Source: Lachnospiraceae bacterium (GTDB lineage Bacteria; Bacillota; Clostridia; Lachnospirales; Lachnospiraceae). From it: 38,500 bases of DNA. The DNA lies in NCBI GenBank assembly GCA_024699045.1, contig JAILQK010000136.1, positions 1 through 38,500 on the forward strand, in the 5' to 3' direction. Shown here one piece after another: positions 2,407 to 17,102 of the stretch. Within the stretch, counting starts at the first letter, position 1; each line of letters begins with the position of its first letter. A model generated the notes under the pieces. The model was not told the origin of the DNA. It saw only the letters and a program-made list of their open reading frames with translations, and searched no databases. The position numbers and the translations under genes were made by a program.

Positions 2407-5400
2407 ATGGGTACCTACGGGGAAAGACTAAAGAATTCCAGATCGTATGAAGAAACGGTTACGTCCAATCTTTGCCGTATACTTTTGATCTGTGTGATAG
2501 CGGTTCCGGCGCTTCTGTTCGGAGCCAATCTGGGGATGTGTACGCTGCCTCAGGGGCAGCTGTATGCGACCTGTTTTATAATGGTTCTTGCCACTGTAGC
2601 TCCGATAATGCTCTATAAGAGCAGGATCCCGATCGGATTCATCAAATACTATATAGGCATTACGGTCTCTCTGGCTGTCTGGGCGATCACACTGATCCCG
2701 GAGGTCGATATCAGGACAGGCTACCTTATAGGAGTAGCCGTTGCTCTGATATATCTTGATATCCAGCTTATGACCATCACTGCGGTCTTTTCCTATATCC
2801 TTATGTGTCTGTCGCTGCTCTTACTGTATATGTGGACCGATACGGGAGAGGGGGCGATAGCTTCGGTCTTTCAGGATTCCAACGGAGATCTTGTTTCCGC
2901 GCTCCTGAGGTTCACACTGGAGTTTGTGCTTTTGATGCCGGCTTTCTTCATGGCGAGCATCCTGGCAAAAAGACATCTGATGAGTGAAGAGGAGCTCTTT
3001 ATCGAGCTTTCCGCCGAGGAGGAAAGATACAGGCTTGCTTTTGAAGGCTCCGACGATGTCATCTTTGATTACGTATACGATACCGATAATCTGACTTATT
3101 ACGGTTCCCTTCTTGAAGACAATCCCGATAATTCCGTTGAACGGCATCTGAATCATGCTTTTGAGGCGCTCTCTAAGGGAGAGATCCTTCACAGTGAAGA
3201 TATCGAATCCGTAATAAACTTTATCAACGGAGAATGCGACGAGCCGCTCACGGTCAGGCTGTGCGGGAAGGAACCCGGGGAATATATCTGGATCCGGATC
3301 GAAGGCCGGGTCGTAAAACGCGGTGAGAAGAAGATCCGTGTCGTGGGTAAGATCACGGATATAACCGAGGAGAAGGATAAGGAAGCAAATTTCCTCGAAG
3401 CGGCAAAGAGGGACAGCGCCACCGGTTTCTATGCATGGGATATAGGCGAAAGACTGATAGAAAAGCTTGAGGATGAAGAAGGGAAAAAGCTCTGTTATCT
3501 GTTTTTCAAGATATTAAATCTTCAGGACATCACCGACCAGTACGGAAGCTTTTTCATGGATGCCATAATATCGAGGATCGCCGATACTTCGCAGAGCGTC
3601 CTTAAGCCGGAGGATTATCTTTTCAGACTGAATAATGATACGTTTATCGCGCTCATGATCGATACGGATGATGATATCATCTCCATGATCCACTCGAGCC
3701 TTGAGCATTCGCTGGATCATATATATACCGGCGAAGACGGGAACGGGCTTGATTACATAGTAAGGTTCATACGTGATAAAAGCGAACTCCTAAAATATAT
3801 CGAGGGAGAAAGCTCCGCGACGGTCGAGCCTGTCAAAAAGAGCGGGGATCTTGATTATGATTCCGTCAGCTTTACCTTCAATATACTTGAGCATTCAAAG
3901 GATTTCGCAACCTCGATGATGCTCCTGCTCGAGCATATCGCGAATAAATTCAATATCGTAAATATTCACGTGATGGAGCGGGATGATACTCCGGGACTCG
4001 AGATATGCCTGTATGATTTCACATCGATGCCGGGAGGAAACAGGTACGCTCAGGGGGATCGCAGAGAAAGCGATACGACCGAGCTTCAGATGACCTATGA
4101 CATACTCGCGAACAGTGAATATGTGATAATGAACAGTTCTTTCCTTTCCAATTACAGCAACGATACCCGAAACCGGATAGCAAATGAACATACCTCTCAT
4201 TTTGTCGTTCCGATCCTTTCGGCGGGTGAGCTTTACGGTACGGTTGATTATGAGCATCTGAACATAGATTATGAATGGCCCGAGACCACCGTGAACACTC
4301 TGGTCGAGGTTACCAGATGTATGTCCACTTATCTTCTGAGAGACCGGGCGGATTCGGCGAGCAAGGCGAAGAGTGATTTCCTTGCGTCCGTCTCTCACGA
4401 GATCCGGACTCCCCTGAATGCCATCTCGGGCTTCTCGGAGCTTATGCTCTCACAGGAGACGCTTGATTCGGAATCCAGGAGATTCGCGACCGGCATTAAG
4501 GGCTCGGCGGACAATCTGCTTGCGATCATCAGCGGGATCCTTGATTTCTCAAAGATCGAGTCCGGCAAGGTCGAGATAATGCATGACAGGTTCAGGATCT
4601 CCGATCTGATCTCGGATCTTTACCGGATGACGGTAATGAGCGTCAGGGAAGAGGGCCTTGATTACAATGTCCGCTTTGACGGACAAGTTCCGGACGGACT
4701 TGTCGGTGATGAGCAGAGGATAAAGCAGGTACTGCTCAATCTGGTCAGCAATGCGATAAAATTCACCACGGACGGACAGATCGATCTGGATGTCGCCTTT
4801 ATTCCCGGTGAAGAGAGCTCCAAGGGGATGCTGACCGCTTCTGTCAGGGATACCGGAGCCGGGATAAGGGAAGACGAGATCGGTTTTATTTTCGAATCCT
4901 TCCAGTATGCCGACAATGCACGGAATAAGTCCACAAAGGGCGTTGGCCTGGGTCTCACCATCTGTCGGGATCTGCTCCATATGATGAAGGGCGATATCAC
5001 CTGTGAATCCGTATACGGAGAGGGCTCGGTGTTCAGGATCACGCTTCCGGTAGATGTCTTTGACGACAGTCCGGCAACCTTTGATGAAGAGTATGCGGAG
5101 AACAAGACGGAAGAGGTCTTTAAGCTTCCGTTCATCTGTCCGAGAGCCAAGGTCCTTATCGTTGATGATAACAGGGTAAATCTTGATGTGGCCAAGGGTC
5201 TTATCGGGCAGTATCATCCTCAGATCACTACGGCGATGTCGGGAGACGAGGCGCTCAACATCTATTTCAGCGAGCACGATTTTGATATCATCTTCATGGA
5301 TCACATGATGCCGAAGATGGATGGTATCGAGTGCGTCAATCACCTCAGAAGGCTCAATGTTGAAGGCGCGGCGGATGTTCCCGTTGTCGCCCTTACCGCA

Positions 5401-6231
5401 AATGCCGTAAAGGGCGCCAGAAAGCTGTTCCTGTCTTCCGGAATGGATGATTATATCTCAAAGCCCATAAAGCTGACGACACTGGCAGAAGTCATGTCCA
5501 GATGGATACCTGACAAGTACAAGGAGACGCCGATATGGGATAATACCTGGGAGGATCCTTCCGCAAGAGATAACAAGCCCAAAGAAAAGACGACGGGAGC
5601 CGGTTCAGGGACGGATATTTATGATTTTTCATCACTCGAAGATATCAATGCGGATCAGGCTATAATCAATGTAGGAGGGAGCAAGGATGTATACAGAGAG
5701 CTCCTTGCGACCTTTGTCGATTCGGATTCGATGTCGGAAGCCCAGCAGTATTATGATCAAAGAGATCTTGAGAACTACCGGATAACGGTCCACGGACTGA
5801 AGAGCTCCGCCAGATATGTAGGTGCCGACAGTCTTTCCGACAAAGCAAAGGAGCTGGAGGATTATTCCAAGCAGGGTGACTGGGAGTCCATAGACAGGGA
5901 GCACGAGAATCTTAAACCAATGTACAAAAAGGTCGCGGATTCGATCAAGGCGTTCCTTGGCGGGGCTTCGGAAGCCGCAGCCGGGAATGACGATTCCAAG
6001 GCTGTGAGCAGAGAAACGGTCTTAAATATGATAAACGAGCTTTCCGGATATCTGGCCGATATGGACTTTGACGAGGCTTCCGAGGCTGCCGGGGCATTGA
6101 AGGGGATAAGCGTCGGACAGGAAGATATCGATACCGATATCAGCGATATCGTGCGTATGGTCGAGAACTTTGATTTCGAAGATGCGGAGAGTAACATCAT
6201 CCCCTTAAAGGAGAAGCTTGCCGAGGGGTGA
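2407..6231 (+). CDS. Membrane hybrid histidine kinase (PAS, degenerate GGDEF, HisKA, HATPase, REC, Hpt)
   Basis: 1274 residues, a multi-step phosphorelay kinase. In order: about six hydrophobic segments (residues about 23-190); a PAS-like domain (about 205-325) ending in VVGKITDITEEKD; a GGDEF-like module (about 336-438) whose signature reads NNDTF at 409-413, so cyclase activity is not expected; a GAF-like region (about 485-650); HisKA with SHEIRTPLNAISGF and phospho-His at 664; HATPase with NLVSNAIKF (N box), DTGAGI (G1) and GVGLGLTI (G2); a receiver with DD at 920-921, phospho-Asp 965 in FMDHMMPKMDG and Lys 1019; an Hpt domain with His 1129 in VHGLKSSARYVGA; and a C-terminal helical extension of about 70 residues. 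No DNA-binding output is fused, so the phosphate probably passes to a separate regulator not seen here. ATG 2407 lies 5 nt after the preceding stop without a strong ribosome site, which suggests coupling. Its signal is unknown. Confidence 0.93.
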   Translation: MGTYGERLKNSRSYEETVTSNLCRILLICVIAVPALLFGANLGMCTLPQGQLYATCFIMVLATVAPIMLYKSRIPIGFIKYYIGITVSLAVWAITLIPEVDIRTGYLIGVAVALIYLDIQLMTITAVFSYILMCLSLLLLYMWTDTGEGAIASVFQDSNGDLVSALLRFTLEFVLLMPAFFMASILAKRHLMSEEELFIELSAEEERYRLAFEGSDDVIFDYVYDTDNLTYYGSLLEDNPDNSVERHLNHAFEALSKGEILHSEDIESVINFINGECDEPLTVRLCGKEPGEYIWIRIEGRVVKRGEKKIRVVGKITDITEEKDKEANFLEAAKRDSATGFYAWDIGERLIEKLEDEEGKKLCYLFFKILNLQDITDQYGSFFMDAIISRIADTSQSVLKPEDYLFRLNNDTFIALMIDTDDDIISMIHSSLEHSLDHIYTGEDGNGLDYIVRFIRDKSELLKYIEGESSATVEPVKKSGDLDYDSVSFTFNILEHSKDFATSMMLLLEHIANKFNIVNIHVMERDDTPGLEICLYDFTSMPGGNRYAQGDRRESDTTELQMTYDILANSEYVIMNSSFLSNYSNDTRNRIANEHTSHFVVPILSAGELYGTVDYEHLNIDYEWPETTVNTLVEVTRCMSTYLLRDRADSASKAKSDFLASVSHEIRTPLNAISGFSELMLSQETLDSESRRFATGIKGSADNLLAIISGILDFSKIESGKVEIMHDRFRISDLISDLYRMTVMSVREEGLDYNVRFDGQVPDGLVGDEQRIKQVLLNLVSNAIKFTTDGQIDLDVAFIPGEESSKGMLTASVRDTGAGIREDEIGFIFESFQYADNARNKSTKGVGLGLTICRDLLHMMKGDITCESVYGEGSVFRITLPVDVFDDSPATFDEEYAENKTEEVFKLPFICPRAKVLIVDDNRVNLDVAKGLIGQYHPQITTAMSGDEALNIYFSEHDFDIIFMDHMMPKMDGIECVNHLRRLNVEGAADVPVVALTANAVKGARKLFLSSGMDDYISKPIKLTTLAEVMSRWIPDKYKETPIWDNTWEDPSARDNKPKEKTTGAGSGTDIYDFSSLEDINADQAIINVGGSKDVYRELLATFVDSDSMSEAQQYYDQRDLENYRITVHGLKSSARYVGADSLSDKAKELEDYSKQGDWESIDREHENLKPMYKKVADSIKAFLGGASEAAAGNDDSKAVSRETVLNMINELSGYLADMDFDEASEAAGALKGISVGQEDIDTDISDIVRMVENFDFEDAESNIIPLKEKLAEG

Positions 6232-11285: not shown

Positions 11286-11295
11286 ATGATAGATC

Positions 11296-11314
11296 ACGGA
11301 TCGGCGAGATCCGT
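11296..11314 (+). other. Compact hairpin between ilvB and serC
   Basis: ACGGATC (11296-11302) and GATCCGT (11308-11314) form a perfect 7-bp stem with a 5-nt loop, starting 10 nt after the ilvB stop and ending a few bases before the serC ribosome site (GAGGAGG). No U-run follows. It may be an mRNA processing or stability element separating the ilv and ser parts of the message. Confidence 0.4.
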
Positions 11315-11330
11315 TAATGAGGAGGATAAA

Positions 11331-12413
11331 ATGAGCAGAGTTTACAATTTTTCGGCAGGACCTTCCATGTTACCGCTGGAGGTGCTTGAGACAGCGCAGA
11401 AGGAGATGCTTGATTACCACGGATCGGGACAGTCGGTAATGGAGATGTCGCACCGGTCCAAGGTCTATGATGAGATCATAAAGACGGCCGAAGCGGATTT
11501 CAGGGAGCTGGCCGGGGTGCCCGACAACTATAAGGTACTGTTTTTGCAGGGAGGGGCTTCGACGCAGTTTGCGATGATCCCCATGAACCTTATGAAAAAC
11601 AAGGTTGCCGACTATATCGTGACCGGACAGTGGGCAAAGAAAGCCTGGCAGGAGGCCGGGAATTTCGGTACCGCGAATAAGATCGCATCTTCGGAGGATA
11701 AGACTTTTACATATATCCCCGATGTAAGGGATCTTCCGATAAGCGATAATGCCGATTATGTTTATATCTGCCAGAACAATACGATCTACGGTACAAGATA
11801 CAGGGAGCTTCCGGATACCAAGGGTAAGACTCTGGTCTCGGATGTTTCGTCCATGTTCCTTTCGGAGCCCATGGATGTCACAAAATACGGTATTGTGTAC
11901 GGCGGAGTGCAGAAGAACGTAGGTCCCGCGGGAGTTACGATCGTCGTGATAAGGGAGGATCTTATCAGCGAGGATACCCTGCCGGGGACTCCCACAATGC
12001 TCAAATACAAGACACATGCGGATAATGATTCTCTGTACAATACCCCTCCAGCTTACAATATCTATGTGTGCGGACTGGTATTCAAGTGGCTCAAAAAGAT
12101 GGGCGGCCTTACGGAGATGAAGAAGATCAACGAGTCAAAGGCAAAAGTCCTGTATGATTATCTTGACAGCTCGAAGCTCTTCAGGGGCACCGTTGTGCCG
12201 GAGTACCGTTCGCTGATGAATGTTCCTTTTGTGACCGATTCCGATGAGCTCAACAAAAAATTCATCGAGGAGTCGACAAAGGCCGGTTTTGTCAATCTGA
12301 AAGGACACCGTACGGTCGGCGGAATGCGGGCATCAATATATAATGCAATGCCTGAGGAAGGTGTAAAGAAGCTCGTAGAGTTCATGGATCGTTTTGAAAA
12401 AGAGAACGGCTGA
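11331..12413 (+). CDS. serC: Phosphoserine aminotransferase
   Basis: 360 residues from ATG 11331, which follows GAGGAGG; the longer in-frame start at 11286 would put 15 unconserved residues in front of the family N-terminus. SerC is a PLP enzyme that transfers the amino group from glutamate to 3-phosphohydroxypyruvate in the second step of serine synthesis. The N-terminus RVYNFSAGPSMLPLEVL, FLQGGASTQFAMIPMNL, the DVSSMFLSEP segment and the PLP-lysine 195 in YGGVQKNVGPAGV are all typical, as is GHRTVGGMRASIYNAMP near the end. It is directly followed by serA (26-nt gap), the enzyme of the preceding step. Confidence 0.97.
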   Translation: MSRVYNFSAGPSMLPLEVLETAQKEMLDYHGSGQSVMEMSHRSKVYDEIIKTAEADFRELAGVPDNYKVLFLQGGASTQFAMIPMNLMKNKVADYIVTGQWAKKAWQEAGNFGTANKIASSEDKTFTYIPDVRDLPISDNADYVYICQNNTIYGTRYRELPDTKGKTLVSDVSSMFLSEPMDVTKYGIVYGGVQKNVGPAGVTIVVIREDLISEDTLPGTPTMLKYKTHADNDSLYNTPPAYNIYVCGLVFKWLKKMGGLTEMKKINESKAKVLYDYLDSSKLFRGTVVPEYRSLMNVPFVTDSDELNKKFIEESTKAGFVNLKGHRTVGGMRASIYNAMPEEGVKKLVEFMDRFEKENG

Positions 12414-12439: not shown

Positions 12440-13603
12440 ATGTTTAAGTATAATTGTCTTAATAATATCGCAAAGGTCGGACTTGACAGCTTTGACCGCA
12501 ATTTCGTCGTGGTTGACGATCTGAAGGATGCGGACTGCGCACTGGTAAGATCCGCAGCGATGCATGATATGGAGCTTCCCGAGAGCCTGCTTGCGATCGC
12601 AAGGGCGGGCGCCGGGGTGAATAATATCCCGATCGACAAGTGTGCCGAAAAGGGGATAGTCGTATTCAATACCCCCGGGGCAAATGCCAACGGAGTCAAG
12701 GAGCTTGTGATCGCGGCAATGCTGCTGGCCTCCCGCGATGTGATCGGGGGCGTCAACTGGGTTACGACTCAGAAGGATAACGAGAACATTGCAAAAGATG
12801 CCGAAAAGCAGAAAAAGCTTTATGCCGGGCAGGAGATCTCCGGAAAGAAACTCGGAGTGATAGGTCTCGGAGCTATAGGTATAAAGGTTGCCAACACCGC
12901 GGTCAATCTCGGAATGGAGGTGTACGGTTATGATCCGTACATATCGGTCGATGCCGCATGGAACCTGTCGAGAGCCGTACGCCATGTTAAAAGCGCCGAG
13001 GAGATCTATGCCAACTGCGATATCATAACGATCCATGTTCCGCTTCTTGATTCCACCAAAAAGATGATAAACGCAGATGCCATCAAGCTCATGAAAAACG
13101 ATGCGATCCTGATAAATCTTGCAAGAGATCTGCTCGTTGACGAGGAGGCGGCGATATCCGCGCTCAAGATCGGAAAGCTTAAGAAGTATGTGACGGATTT
13201 CCCGAATCCCACGACCGTGGGACAGGAGGGCGTGATCGTTATCCCTCATCTCGGGGCTTCCACCGAGGAATCCGAGGACAACTGCGCTATCATGGCGGTA
13301 CAGGAGCTTACGGATTATATGGAAAACGGCAATATCAAAAATTCGGTGAATTTCCCTTCGATCAACATGGGAGTATGCGAAAAAGCGGGAAGGATCATCA
13401 TATTCCACCGGAATAAGGCAAATATGATCACCAAGTTTTCGGGATGCTTCGGTAATGCGGATATCAATATTTCCGAAATGAACAACAAGAGCCGCGGGGA
13501 TAATGCGGTAACCATGGTGGACGTTGATTCTGAGGTCTCCCCTGAGATAATCGAAAAGCTTGAGACCATAGATGATGTTTTCAGGGTAAGAGTAGTTAAG
13601 TAG
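12440..13603 (+). CDS. serA: D-3-phosphoglycerate dehydrogenase (short form with ACT domain)
   Basis: 387 residues behind a strong GAGGAGGAG site. SerA oxidises 3-phosphoglycerate with NAD+ as the first committed step of serine synthesis. It has the substrate-domain motif ARAGAGVNNIPID, the nucleotide fold KLGVIGLGAIGIKVANTAV, the catalytic Arg in LINLARDLLVDEEAA and the catalytic His in IPHLGASTEESEDN. The last 75 or so residues form an ACT-type domain (KANMITKFSGCFGNADINISEM), which in this family usually senses serine. The segment before the catalytic His reads DFPNPTTVGQEG and lacks the familiar ...EP glutamate motif, as I recall for other clostridial short SerA proteins. Paired with serC. 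Confidence 0.95.
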   Translation: MFKYNCLNNIAKVGLDSFDRNFVVVDDLKDADCALVRSAAMHDMELPESLLAIARAGAGVNNIPIDKCAEKGIVVFNTPGANANGVKELVIAAMLLASRDVIGGVNWVTTQKDNENIAKDAEKQKKLYAGQEISGKKLGVIGLGAIGIKVANTAVNLGMEVYGYDPYISVDAAWNLSRAVRHVKSAEEIYANCDIITIHVPLLDSTKKMINADAIKLMKNDAILINLARDLLVDEEAAISALKIGKLKKYVTDFPNPTTVGQEGVIVIPHLGASTEESEDNCAIMAVQELTDYMENGNIKNSVNFPSINMGVCEKAGRIIIFHRNKANMITKFSGCFGNADINISEMNNKSRGDNAVTMVDVDSEVSPEIIEKLETIDDVFRVRVVK

Positions 13604-13623: not shown

Positions 13624-14838
13624 ATGGCGGATATCAGACCGTTTAAGGCCATAAGGCCTGTAAAAGATAAGACAGAGCATATTGCGGCACTTCCATATGA
13701 TGTCATGGATACGGCCGAGGCAAAGACGGAGATAAGTCGTGAGCCGCTTTCATTCCTTCGGATCGACCGTCCGGAGACTAATTTCCCGGACGGGTATGAT
13801 ATGTATGCTCCCGAGGTATATGAGAAAGCGCGTGAGATCTTCGATAAGATGCTTGCTGACGGGGATTTCGTACAGGATGATTCAAGCTGCTATTATATTT
13901 ATGAGCTTACCATGGACGGAAGGTCTCAGACCGGGATCGCCGCGGTCTGCTCGGCAGCCGATTATGAAAGCGGGGTCGTAAAGAAGCATGAAAACACTCT
14001 TGCCGCAAAGGAGCAGGACCGGATCGATCATATAAGCGCGCTTGGGGCTCAGACCGGCCCGATCTTTCTCGCATACAGGAGGGATGCGGACATAGATGCC
14101 GTGGTCAAAAAGCATAAAGCCAGGACACCGGTCTTTGACTTTGTTTCTCCCGACGGAATCGGACACCGCGTCTGGGTCATCTCCGACAGTGAAGATATCG
14201 AACGCTTGAGTAAATGCTTTGAGGGTATATCTGATATATATATCGCCGACGGACATCACAGATGCGCTTCCGCGGTAAAGGTCTTAAAACGGTTTCCGGA
14301 GGCGCCGGGATATTTTATGGCGGTTCTTTTTCCCGACAGTGAACTGAAGATATACGATTATAATCGCGTGGTAAGGGATCTTAACGGACTTTCGGAGAGC
14401 AGGTTTTTTGACCGTCTCAGAAAGAAATACACTGTAGAGCAGCTTGGCAGCGAGCGGACGGCTCCCGGGAAAAAAGGCTGCATGACAATGTATATCAGCG
14501 GGACGTGGTACCGTCTTGAGATCAAAGAAGAGTTTGTGGTGGATGATCCGGTCGGATCATTGGATGTAGCGATCCTTCAAAACGAGGTGCTTTCCCCTAT
14601 ACTTAATATCGAGGATCCGAAGACCGATGAAAGGATCGGCTTTATAGGCGGGATCAGAGGCCTTGCCGAACTGGAAAAACTTGTGGACAGCGGGGCTTAT
14701 GAGGTTGCGTTTGCGATGTTCCCGACTTCGATAGATGAGCTTTTTGCGGTGGCCGATGCAGGCAGACTCATGCCGCCGAAGTCAACATGGTTTGAGCCTA
14801 AGCTCAGATCGGGTTTATTCATAAACAGATTCATATAA
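13624..14838 (+). CDS. DUF1015 family protein
   Basis: 404 residues, soluble, with no signal peptide. The N-terminus ADIRPFKAIRPVKD...IAALPYDVMDTAEA and the central IYIADGHHRCASAVK motif (Asp 209, His 211, His 212, Arg 213) identify the DUF1015 family. The clustered His and Asp residues suggest an active or metal site, but I know of no established reaction. In many Firmicutes the gene lies beside serC/serA, as here, which suggests a link to serine or phosphoserine metabolism by context alone. AAAGGAT lies just upstream of the ATG, and a gap of only 20 nt after serA supports co-transcription. Confidence 0.88.
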   Translation: MADIRPFKAIRPVKDKTEHIAALPYDVMDTAEAKTEISREPLSFLRIDRPETNFPDGYDMYAPEVYEKAREIFDKMLADGDFVQDDSSCYYIYELTMDGRSQTGIAAVCSAADYESGVVKKHENTLAAKEQDRIDHISALGAQTGPIFLAYRRDADIDAVVKKHKARTPVFDFVSPDGIGHRVWVISDSEDIERLSKCFEGISDIYIADGHHRCASAVKVLKRFPEAPGYFMAVLFPDSELKIYDYNRVVRDLNGLSESRFFDRLRKKYTVEQLGSERTAPGKKGCMTMYISGTWYRLEIKEEFVVDDPVGSLDVAILQNEVLSPILNIEDPKTDERIGFIGGIRGLAELEKLVDSGAYEVAFAMFPTSIDELFAVADAGRLMPPKSTWFEPKLRSGLFINRFI

Positions 14839-14863: not shown

Positions 14864-16939
14864 ATGACTAAAAAACTTTACAATCTGATGGACTGGGCTG
14901 AGATCGAAGCCGTGACCTACGTAGAGGAGGATCATCCCAAGGCGGTGCTTGGGGCGCATCCCGTAAGAGGCGGCCAGACACTCATAACGACATATAAACC
15001 TTTGGCGAAGGAAGTGTCCGTTAAGATCAAGGGCTCAAAGAGTGCAGTGAAGATGGAGCTTGCCGATGAGGACGGTTATTATGCGGTACTTGTAAAGAAT
15101 AAAGAGCCGTTTGATTATGAGCTTATGGTTAAGGATGAGGACGGCAACGTAACAACGGAAACGGATCCGTATTCATTCCCCGACAGCATCACCAAACGAG
15201 ATATCCAGAAGTTCAATTCGGGGATACATTATAAAGCTTATGACGTACTTGGGTCACATGTCATGAAGCTTAACGGGGTCACGGGGGTGAGATTTGCGCT
15301 CTGGGCTCCCAATGCGATGAGGGTTTCGGTCGTCGGAGATTTTAACGGCTGGGACGGCAGGATGCATCAGATGGAGCGTCTGTTTGACTCGGGGATATTT
15401 GAGCTTTTTATTCCCGGAGTGGAAGAGGGAGATAAATACAAATATGAGATAAAGCTTAATTCGGGACAGATATTCATGAAGCGTGATCCTTATTCCTTTG
15501 AGGAGGAAGAGAAGGACGATGCGGCATCGATCGTATATGATCTTGACAGACTCCCCGGAGCCGATGAGACATGGCTTGAGGAAAGGGAGGGGAAGCAGGG
15601 TGAGGACAGCCCTCTGAATATCTACGATATAAGAGAAGTCGTGCTTAACAAAAAGGAAGCCGGAAAGATCGTAAAGACCGCATCGGAAATGGGATTCAGC
15701 CATGTGCTGGTAACGGCGCCTTTAGAGCAGCTTTACATGCTTCCGGGAGATCCCGAAGACATCATAGATTTTACCGATACTCTGCATGAAGCGGGGATAG
15801 CGGTCCTTATCAAATGGGATCCGTCAACCTTTTCGGTCAGGGAGGGAGGCCTCCTTATGTACGACGGAAGCTGTCTGTATGAGGACGGTGACGGCCTGCG
15901 TTCCTATGTGCCCGGCTCCGACCGTAAATATTTCAATCTCGGCAGCGTAGGCGTCAGGGATTACCTGCTCTCTAATGCCGTATTTCTGCTCGATGTATTT
16001 CACTTTGACGGACTCATGGTCTCCGAGGTCGCAAGGATGCTCTATCTTGACTACGGCAAGCAGAACAGCGGATGGACACCCAATATGTACGGGGGCAATG
16101 AAAACCTGGATGCGATCGACTTTTTCAGGCTGCTCAACGGGACCCTTCATAAGTATTCCCCTGATATACTCATGATATCCGATGATGATACGGCGTATCC
16201 CGGGATCACAGCGCCGATCGACGATCAGGGACTCGGCTTTGATTACAAGATCGATCACGGCTGGAACAGGGATGTGCTTGCCTATATGAGGCAGGAGCCT
16301 CTCGGAAGATCCAATCATTATAACGAGATCTGCTTCCCGATGATCTACCAGTACAACGAAAGATTCATCCTTCCGATGTATGATATCGCCGATATATGGA
16401 ATGAGATGCCCGGAGACAGGGACGAGAAATTCGGGAGTCTCAAATCGCTGCTCTCATATCACATCGTGCATCCGGGCAAGAAGCTTCTTTCCGGAGATCT
16501 TCCCGATGGAAAAGGAAAGAGCAGGGATATCGCTGCGGTGCAGACTCTGCTTGTGGATGTAAATGCTTTTTACAATAAATACGATATCCTTTATTCCAAA
16601 GAAATGGACCAGTCCGGGTTTGAATGGATCAACAATATCTCCGCGAGGGAGAACATACTGGTCTTTGCAAGACGGGGCAGCAAAAAGGACGAGGTTTTTG
16701 TGGTGGTCGCCAATTTCGCGAATGTTCCCAGAAAGGGCTATAAGATCGGAGTGCCGCGCCCGGGGAGGTATACTGAGATCTTTAATTCGGATGCGGAAAA
16801 GTACGACGGCTTCGGTTTTGTGAATAAAAGCCCTGTGTTCTCCGAGAAATCCGAATGTGACGGAAGGGAAGATTCGATCCGCATAAGGGTCGCTCCGTTG
16901 TCCGTTTCGGTTTTCAGATACGCGCCGGCAAAATCCTGA
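14864..16939 (+). CDS. GlgB-like protein with degenerate catalytic site (probable pseudoenzyme)
   Basis: 691 residues with the glycogen branching enzyme architecture: an N1 beta domain (about 10-105), a CBM48 glycan-binding domain (about 120-225, VRFALWAPNAMRVSVVGDFN), a GH13-like barrel (about 250-560, YGGNENLDAIDFFRLLNG) and a C-terminal beta domain. Against the conserved residues of E. coli GlgB, nearly every catalytic position is changed: the Asp and His of DWVPGHF become Lys 317 and Thr 322 (KWDPSTF), the Arg and nucleophile Asp of LRVDAV become Met 385 and Ser 387 (LMVSEV), the acid/base Glu becomes Asp 440, and His 525 becomes Tyr 506; only the Asp 526 equivalent (507) remains. The loop carrying SWGYQ is deleted. 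The frame is intact and well translated (GAAGAGG site), so this is not a decaying pseudogene. A glycan-binding or scaffolding role is inferred. Annotation as a working glgB would probably be wrong. Confidence 0.85.
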   Translation: MTKKLYNLMDWAEIEAVTYVEEDHPKAVLGAHPVRGGQTLITTYKPLAKEVSVKIKGSKSAVKMELADEDGYYAVLVKNKEPFDYELMVKDEDGNVTTETDPYSFPDSITKRDIQKFNSGIHYKAYDVLGSHVMKLNGVTGVRFALWAPNAMRVSVVGDFNGWDGRMHQMERLFDSGIFELFIPGVEEGDKYKYEIKLNSGQIFMKRDPYSFEEEEKDDAASIVYDLDRLPGADETWLEEREGKQGEDSPLNIYDIREVVLNKKEAGKIVKTASEMGFSHVLVTAPLEQLYMLPGDPEDIIDFTDTLHEAGIAVLIKWDPSTFSVREGGLLMYDGSCLYEDGDGLRSYVPGSDRKYFNLGSVGVRDYLLSNAVFLLDVFHFDGLMVSEVARMLYLDYGKQNSGWTPNMYGGNENLDAIDFFRLLNGTLHKYSPDILMISDDDTAYPGITAPIDDQGLGFDYKIDHGWNRDVLAYMRQEPLGRSNHYNEICFPMIYQYNERFILPMYDIADIWNEMPGDRDEKFGSLKSLLSYHIVHPGKKLLSGDLPDGKGKSRDIAAVQTLLVDVNAFYNKYDILYSKEMDQSGFEWINNISARENILVFARRGSKKDEVFVVVANFANVPRKGYKIGVPRPGRYTEIFNSDAEKYDGFGFVNKSPVFSEKSECDGREDSIRIRVAPLSVSVFRYAPAKS

Positions 16940-16975: not shown

Positions 16976-16990
16976 CGGGCGCTTTAAAAT

Positions 16991-17063
<73 letters not shown>

Positions 17064-17069
17064 GGATCG

Positions 17070-17102
17070 GGAAGTCTGTGAGCAGCAGACTTCCTTTTTT
17101 TT
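17070..17102 (+). terminator. Intrinsic terminator after tRNA-Thr
   Basis: A perfect 9-bp stem (GGAAGTCTG at 17070-17078, CAGACTTCC at 17086-17094) with a 7-nt loop is followed by eight Ts (17095-17102). This is a strong rho-independent terminator and ends block B. Confidence 0.95.

Follow-up and report, generated by a model that had tools for sequence, protein, structure and literature searches.

A Lachnospiraceae paralogue of the glycogen branching enzyme has lost its active site repeatedly and is retained by selection

GlgB2, a paralogue of the glycogen branching enzyme GlgB encoded in the 38,500-nucleotide stretch of Lachnospiraceae DNA analysed here (the window), is a pseudoenzyme maintained by selection. 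This conclusion is well supported: its frames are intact in independent genomes with dN/dS far below 1, the genome encodes a canonical GlgB at a separate locus, and relatives have repeatedly lost the active site, all of which bears out the preliminary description of the locus, in which a selected pseudoenzyme had been proposed. Judged from the alignment and a predicted structure, GlgB2 joins a homologous fold to the loss of catalytic residues, as a pseudoenzyme does. We propose, with a rough probability of 0.45, that it acts as a non-catalytic, probably glucan-binding partner protein similar to ISA2.

The GlgB2 reading frame is open over 691 codons and is preceded by an AGAGG motif 5 bases 5' of the ATG (Table 1), in line with the earlier account of an uninterrupted gene with a good ribosome site. 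Pfam matched GlgB_N, CBM_48 and Alpha-amylase_C in the window protein and gave no match to the catalytic domain PF00128, which is matched by E. coli GlgB, by the canonical GlgB of the same genome and in 19 of 34 aligned relatives. An AlphaFold2 model built from the relatives' alignment (mean pLDDT 85.7) retains the eight barrel strands, as read by eye from the DSSP line, and the best 50 Foldseek matches of this model are branching enzymes throughout, with TM scores of 0.83-0.88 to the full-length GlgB structures 3k1d and 9u77. The N1-CBM48-barrel-C architecture and, in the predicted model, the GlgB fold are thus present, and the four domains named in the preliminary description were recovered, N1, CBM48 and the C domain by Pfam and the barrel by AlphaFold2 and Foldseek. 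With respect to domain order and predicted fold GlgB2 resembles bacterial GlgB (GH13, TIGR01515), and it also passes the TIGR01515 name cut-off (498.3 versus 463.95 bits); in contrast to that enzyme, it lacks the nucleophile, the acid/base Glu, subsite residues, the active-site loops and a PF00128 match. Many of its close matches stem from rumen or gut samples. Since GlgB2 passes the cut-off, it would be annotated automatically as an active branching enzyme, and glgB is probably overcounted in genomes from the gut and the rumen.

Table 1. Features of GlgB2 and its surroundings, in window coordinates.
Feature	Position	Strand	Remarks
serC, phosphoserine transaminase	11286..12413	+	
serA-like phosphoglycerate dehydrogenase	12440..13603	+	best NCBIfam match below its cut-off
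DUF1015 protein; structural model similar to SerK/SbnI (free serine kinases)	13624..14838	+	separated from GlgB2 by 25 bases
GlgB2, catalytically degenerate GlgB paralogue	14864..16939	+	691 aa
N-terminal motif (LYNLMDWAEIEAVTYxEE...)	14864..14959	+	common to dead and most intact GlgB2, by eye
N1 domain (GlgB_N), residues 1-108	14864..15187	+	Pfam; omega 0.049 in clade A
CBM48, residues 129-211; W163 = E. coli W159, external glucan site IV	15248..15496	+	
Degenerate (beta/alpha)8 barrel, ~residues 236-585; active-site loops shortened	15569..16618	+	
S387, position of nucleophile D405	16022..16024	+	alignment to E. coli GlgB
D440, position of acid/base E458	16181..16183	+	Asp in 20/20 clade A+B proteins
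D507, opposite H525 or D526 depending on gap	16382..16384	+	
C-terminal beta domain, residues 588-686; W588 = E. coli W628, external glucan site VI	16625..16921	+	
tRNA-Thr(CGU)	16990..17064	+	
Terminator-like hairpin with T run	17069..17095	+	

Residues were compared with E. coli GlgB (numbering checked on MG1655), for which eight conserved positions were scored: Y300, D335, H340, R403, D405, E458, H525 and D526. The catalytic set of Asp405, Glu458 and Asp526 is not conserved in GlgB2, where Ser387, Asp440 and either a gap or Asp507 take their places. The first two replacements agree with what had been read by hand in the preliminary description, as does the deletion that encompasses Tyr300; an active site with intact Asp and Glu, which would have spoken against the pseudoenzyme, did not emerge from the alignment. 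Arg403 is further exchanged for Met385, Asp335 for Lys317 and His340 for Thr322. Whereas the loss of seven of the eight residues was thereby upheld, the claimed survival of the last, Asp526, proved insecure: MAFFT sets Asp507 opposite His525 and leaves Asp526 opposite a gap, and a HMMER alignment to Cyanothece GlgB places Asp507 opposite the Asp. The count of conserved residues left, 0 or 1 of 8, thus hinges on a single gap, and none is secure; in seven proteins of the sister clade the Asp526 position holds Ser, Gly, Arg or Asn. Having lost its nucleophile, its acid/base Glu, the residues of the subsites and the loops around them, GlgB2 should be unable to carry out GH13 double displacement. 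The invariant Asp at the acid/base position, which could mean that some chemistry is left, speaks against this reading. Within the genus, 38 positions without variation in 15 intact copies survive in no more than two of the 20 proteins of clade A+B, to which the window protein belongs.

In a 67-row tree, the family's proteins form two lineages, GlgB1 (with a short, canonical form and a long one) and GlgB2, and 23 GlgBs from other families of the order, the best-scoring ones, fall outside both with all eight residues intact. GlgB2, its fragments or its start is present in 47 of the 48 genomes of a genus sample, which yielded 44 scored frames, three of them ending at contig ends (G141 and G153, holding fragments only, were dropped from the count, and G133 and G140 had none to score). 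The absence from G133 is not real, as the contig ends inside the start of GlgB2 right after DUF1015; that of G140 breaks inside DUF1015. Asp405 is lost in 29 of the 44 GlgB2 versus none of 39 GlgB1 proteins (Fisher p 1.6e-11, a value that ignores shared ancestry). At least one of the eight residues is changed in 31 of these GlgB2 proteins, and all three catalytic residues are lost in 23 of the 44, counting the D526 gap of clade A as a loss; among the 39 GlgB1 proteins, G130 carries E458V and G124 is truncated before Tyr300. Outside the genus, 88 loci among the matches listed in a 120-genome family sample, in which the weakest matches are under-sampled, left 70 GlgB2 and 13 long GlgB1 once five short GlgB1 had been dropped. 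Among these listed matches, Asp405 is lost in 17 of the 70 GlgB2 and in none of the 13 long GlgB1; as the majority of the scored GlgB2 (53/70) keep it, branching may still matter outside the genus. Many of the surveyed genomes are draft MAGs. We reject a MAG artefact as the cause of the dead state, which recurs in independent assemblies including G142 (3 contigs) and G072 (5 contigs).

The phylogeny establishes several independent losses of the active site. An IQ-TREE of 47 hand-chosen rows (29 of the 44 genus GlgB2 and 18 of 83 long family rows; 23 dead), calculated without the catalytic columns by a quick search with SH-aLRT support only, needs nine changes in the state of Asp405, seven of which are forced by strongly supported (starred) branches. 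A FastTree of 136 rows (127 labelled, 46 dead) likewise needs nine changes, six of them forced; as its long dead branches meet, the smaller tree was used for the counts. Such counts carry no direction, and the changes are read as losses because Asp405 is retained both by the 23 GlgBs from other families of the order and by the GlgB1 proteins scored. One of the genus changes, in G139, is D405E, and the window's clade A+B (20 genomes) accounts for one loss event. This recurrence, like the usual position of GlgB2 behind serC-serA-DUF1015, had been missed in the preliminary description.

Dead GlgB2 is under purifying selection in the three dead clades measured. With GY codon models, omega amounts to 0.079 in clade A (10 rows), 0.061 in clade B (7 rows) and 0.031 in the D405N clade (3 rows), compared with 0.051, 0.036 and 0.023 in three D405-intact GlgB2 sets and with 0.041 and 0.020 for GlgB1 from clade A and clade B genomes, respectively; values derived from saturated dS are rough. 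In four of seven dead pairs, scored by both methods, dN is 0.04-0.06 and dS 0.65-1.7. Relatives decaying at a dN/dS near 1, which would have spoken against the pseudoenzyme, were not seen. Within clade A, omega is 0.049 for N1, 0.064 for CBM48, 0.103 for the barrel and 0.033 for the C domain. The barrel values of clades A and B (0.103 and 0.078) exceed those of every intact set (0.019-0.064); part of GlgB2 is therefore relaxed. Mean identity to intact GlgB2 follows the same regions: for the barrel it is 62% among intact copies, 38% in clade A+B and 47% in other dead copies, as against 58, 54 and 51% for CBM48, 55, 62 and 54% for the N-terminal motif, and 50, 47 and 46% for the C domain. On the basis of identity and omega, constraint has therefore gone from much of the barrel and not from the other regions. 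The repeated, separate losses of the active site combined with selective retention of the gene indicate a second job that does not need catalysis.

These data bear on three other explanations of GlgB2. That the protein keeps branching activity through residues misplaced by the alignment is barely conceivable: one gap does put Asp507 opposite Asp526, yet there is Ser at the nucleophile position, the Tyr300 loop is deleted, Arg403 and Asp335 are gone and the window protein has no PF00128 match. We also consider it very unlikely that GlgB2 is a decaying, redundant gene heading for loss. A canonical GlgB makes its branching redundant, and the barrel shows an elevated omega in the dead clades A and B; however, no stops were found within the matches of the scored dead copies, omega stays at 0.03-0.08 in the three dead clades, the gene is retained in 47 of the 48 genus genomes and the N-terminal motif has not eroded, and we reject decay on the open frames and the low omega. 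A quite improbable third explanation is that the barrel has come to bind another ligand or to catalyse another reaction, and that the invariant pair Asp440-Asp441 belongs to a new site. Both positions are Asp in all 20 clade A+B rows, and 35 positions are invariant in clade A+B while differing from the intact majority. Against a new site, the nucleophile position varies freely within clade A+B (Ser, Asn, Ala, Lys, Thr or Pro), most subsite positions vary too, omega is higher for the barrel than for the other three regions in both clades, and 13 of the 26 dead copies outside clade A+B keep Glu at position 458.

Following a suggestion in the preliminary description, the window's genome was searched for a canonical glgB, and a second GlgB with all eight residues intact was found on contig C145. 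About 26 kb from this GlgB, the contig also carries glgD, adjoined by a related glgC-type gene that scores below the glgD cut-off; a glgA-type gene lies on contig C63, and GlgB2 is on a different contig from the glg genes found. All 17 other-genus genomes with a dead GlgB2, among the matches listed, encode a GlgB1 with Asp405 and Glu458, which has all eight residues in 16 cases and is a partial frame in one. In the genus, 26 of the 29 genomes with a dead GlgB2 show GlgB1 or part of one. No GlgB1 was found in the drafts G125, G137 and G157 (75-81% complete), and cover of the dead protein by GlgB1 is therefore not demonstrated in these three. In G130, whose GlgB2 is dead too, GlgB1 (L219) has Val at the acid/base position (E458V), which could be a sequencing error or mark a genome without an active branching enzyme.

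The first 32 residues of GlgB2 carry the motif LYxLMDWxxIEAxxYSEE, which by eye is present in the dead copies whose start is complete and in the majority of intact copies, and was not seen in the 13 long GlgB1 rows, in E. coli GlgB or in the 23 order relatives; a search of the window's own genome at E up to 10 gave no second copy. Intact GlgB2 proteins such as those of G123 (L131) and L062 share lineage, motif and domains with the window protein and differ from it in having all eight active-site residues. PMC10254366 catalogues twelve glucan sites for E. coli GlgB. The positions of Trp159 (site IV) and Trp628 (site VI) are each kept in 45 of 46 dead copies, and in GlgB1 in 38 and 39 of 39 proteins, respectively; as GlgB1 keeps them too, these residues may be structural. 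Clade A+B has lost the aromatics of sites I, VII, VIII and XII; at sites II, III, V, IX and X, aromatics are atypical even among intact GlgB2. GlgB2 may bind glucan; the glycan-sensing or scaffolding role put forward in the preliminary description is, like this binding, putative.

The surroundings of GlgB2 were studied in the best 80 matches (L033-L112), a sample biased to the window's kin, of which five had less than the 0.7 kb of upstream DNA needed for scoring. DUF1015 lies directly upstream in 70 of the 75 remaining loci (17/17 dead, 53/58 intact), and serA is upstream in 15 of 17 dead and 41 of 58 intact loci. Its usual location after serC, serA and DUF1015 suggests that GlgB2 may be co-expressed with the serine pathway. 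In the wider family, coordinates of the 17 dead GlgB2 among the matches listed show eight linked to DUF1015, six unlinked (G047, G069, G010, G081, G072 and G043) and three at contig edges. DUF1015 is ~130 kb away on the same contig in G072 and on other contigs in G047, G010 and G081, although DNA upstream of GlgB2 is present there, and G043 has no DUF1015 match in its genome. A strict pairing of GlgB2 with DUF1015 is weakened by such unlinked and DUF1015-less genomes. Among 12 intact GlgB2 with surroundings chosen for reading, seven have DUF1015 upstream. A tRNA-Thr follows GlgB2 in 14 of 15 clade A+B loci scanned, and one tRNA is the sole Rfam element above the gathering score in the window. 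In other families of the order, argH adjoins GlgB on the opposite strand in 11 of 23 loci.

The window's DUF1015 protein has no NCBIfam match. Its AlphaFold2 model (pLDDT 90.9) has nine best PDB matches, five to SerK, three to SbnI and one to a functionally uncharacterised Pyrococcus protein, at E-values of 1.5e-8 to 2.6e-6 but TM scores of just 0.34-0.39 by query length. A SerB match over the cut-off is found in none of the 48 genus genomes, and weaker matches occur in 47. According to PMC9026213, 450 gut genomes have SerA and SerC and lack a known SerB, and a 'DU1015' fusion is listed in PMC12704722 among the ParB-CTPase folds tested. The DUF1015 protein is a candidate for the missing phosphoserine step.

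Conceivably, GlgB2 anchors one of SerA, SerC and the SerK-like DUF1015 protein on glycogen, or informs them of the state of the glycogen store, so that use of 3-phosphoglycerate would be tied to stored carbon. The near-constant DUF1015 neighbour in the best 80 matches, the gap of only 25 bases in the window and the motif special to the GlgB2 lineage are in favour; we nonetheless hold this unlikely, since linkage is looser across the family, the motif persists in intact GlgB2 unlinked to DUF1015 (for example in G046 and G044) and a shared position may reflect inheritance only. The broader proposition that the second Lachnospiraceae GlgB lineage is a glycogen-bound adaptor co-expressed with serine biosynthesis, linking stored glucose to 3-phosphoglycerate use, appears doubtful; there, the active site would have been discarded repeatedly because the job needs no catalysis. 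We place the role of an ISA2-like partner first, because it requires only the glycogen machinery and nearly all genomes checked have GlgB1, and the serine adaptor second, because dead copies are also retained where DUF1015 is not a neighbour. As an ISA2-like partner, GlgB2 would use external sites on its CBM48 and C domains to hold the alpha-glucan and the conserved N-terminal helices to reach its partner, and the subunit would change the work of the glycogen enzymes, most simply of GlgB1, on the polymer, as ISA2 does with ISA1.

GlgD is a regulatory partner of GlgC in Bacillota. GlgB2 would resemble it as a paralogous partner inside the glycogen pathway, and glgD is present in the window's genome; the two differ in the enzyme step concerned, and GlgB2 does not share a contig with the glg genes found. 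PMC10395257 refers to a regulatory subunit of GlgC. Maize ISA2 is described in PMC12510319 as a non-catalytic paralogue that shapes alpha-glucan together with ISA1. Like the protein so described, GlgB2 is a dead GH13 paralogue in alpha-glucan metabolism beside an active one, and an active-type paralogue is indeed encoded in the window's genome. In contrast, ISA2 belongs to a plant debranching lineage, whereas GlgB2 belongs to a bacterial branching-enzyme lineage and has lost its active site several times. Non-catalytic paralogues in alpha-glucan metabolism are thus known; in the open-licence PMC literature we found no report of a catalytically dead bacterial GlgB, nor of a recurrent one among bacterial branching enzymes, and 'one inactive isoform' in archaea, to which a note under a table in PMC11046441 refers, is a possible precedent. 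GlgB2 would be a bacterial counterpart of ISA2. Repeated, independent loss of the active site with retention of the gene constitutes a natural experiment: by comparison of related species whose GlgB2 is intact or dead, a non-catalytic role of branching enzymes can be tested directly. Elsewhere in the window, positions 2407-6231 encode a 1274-residue hybrid histidine kinase with GGDEF, receiver and Hpt domains.
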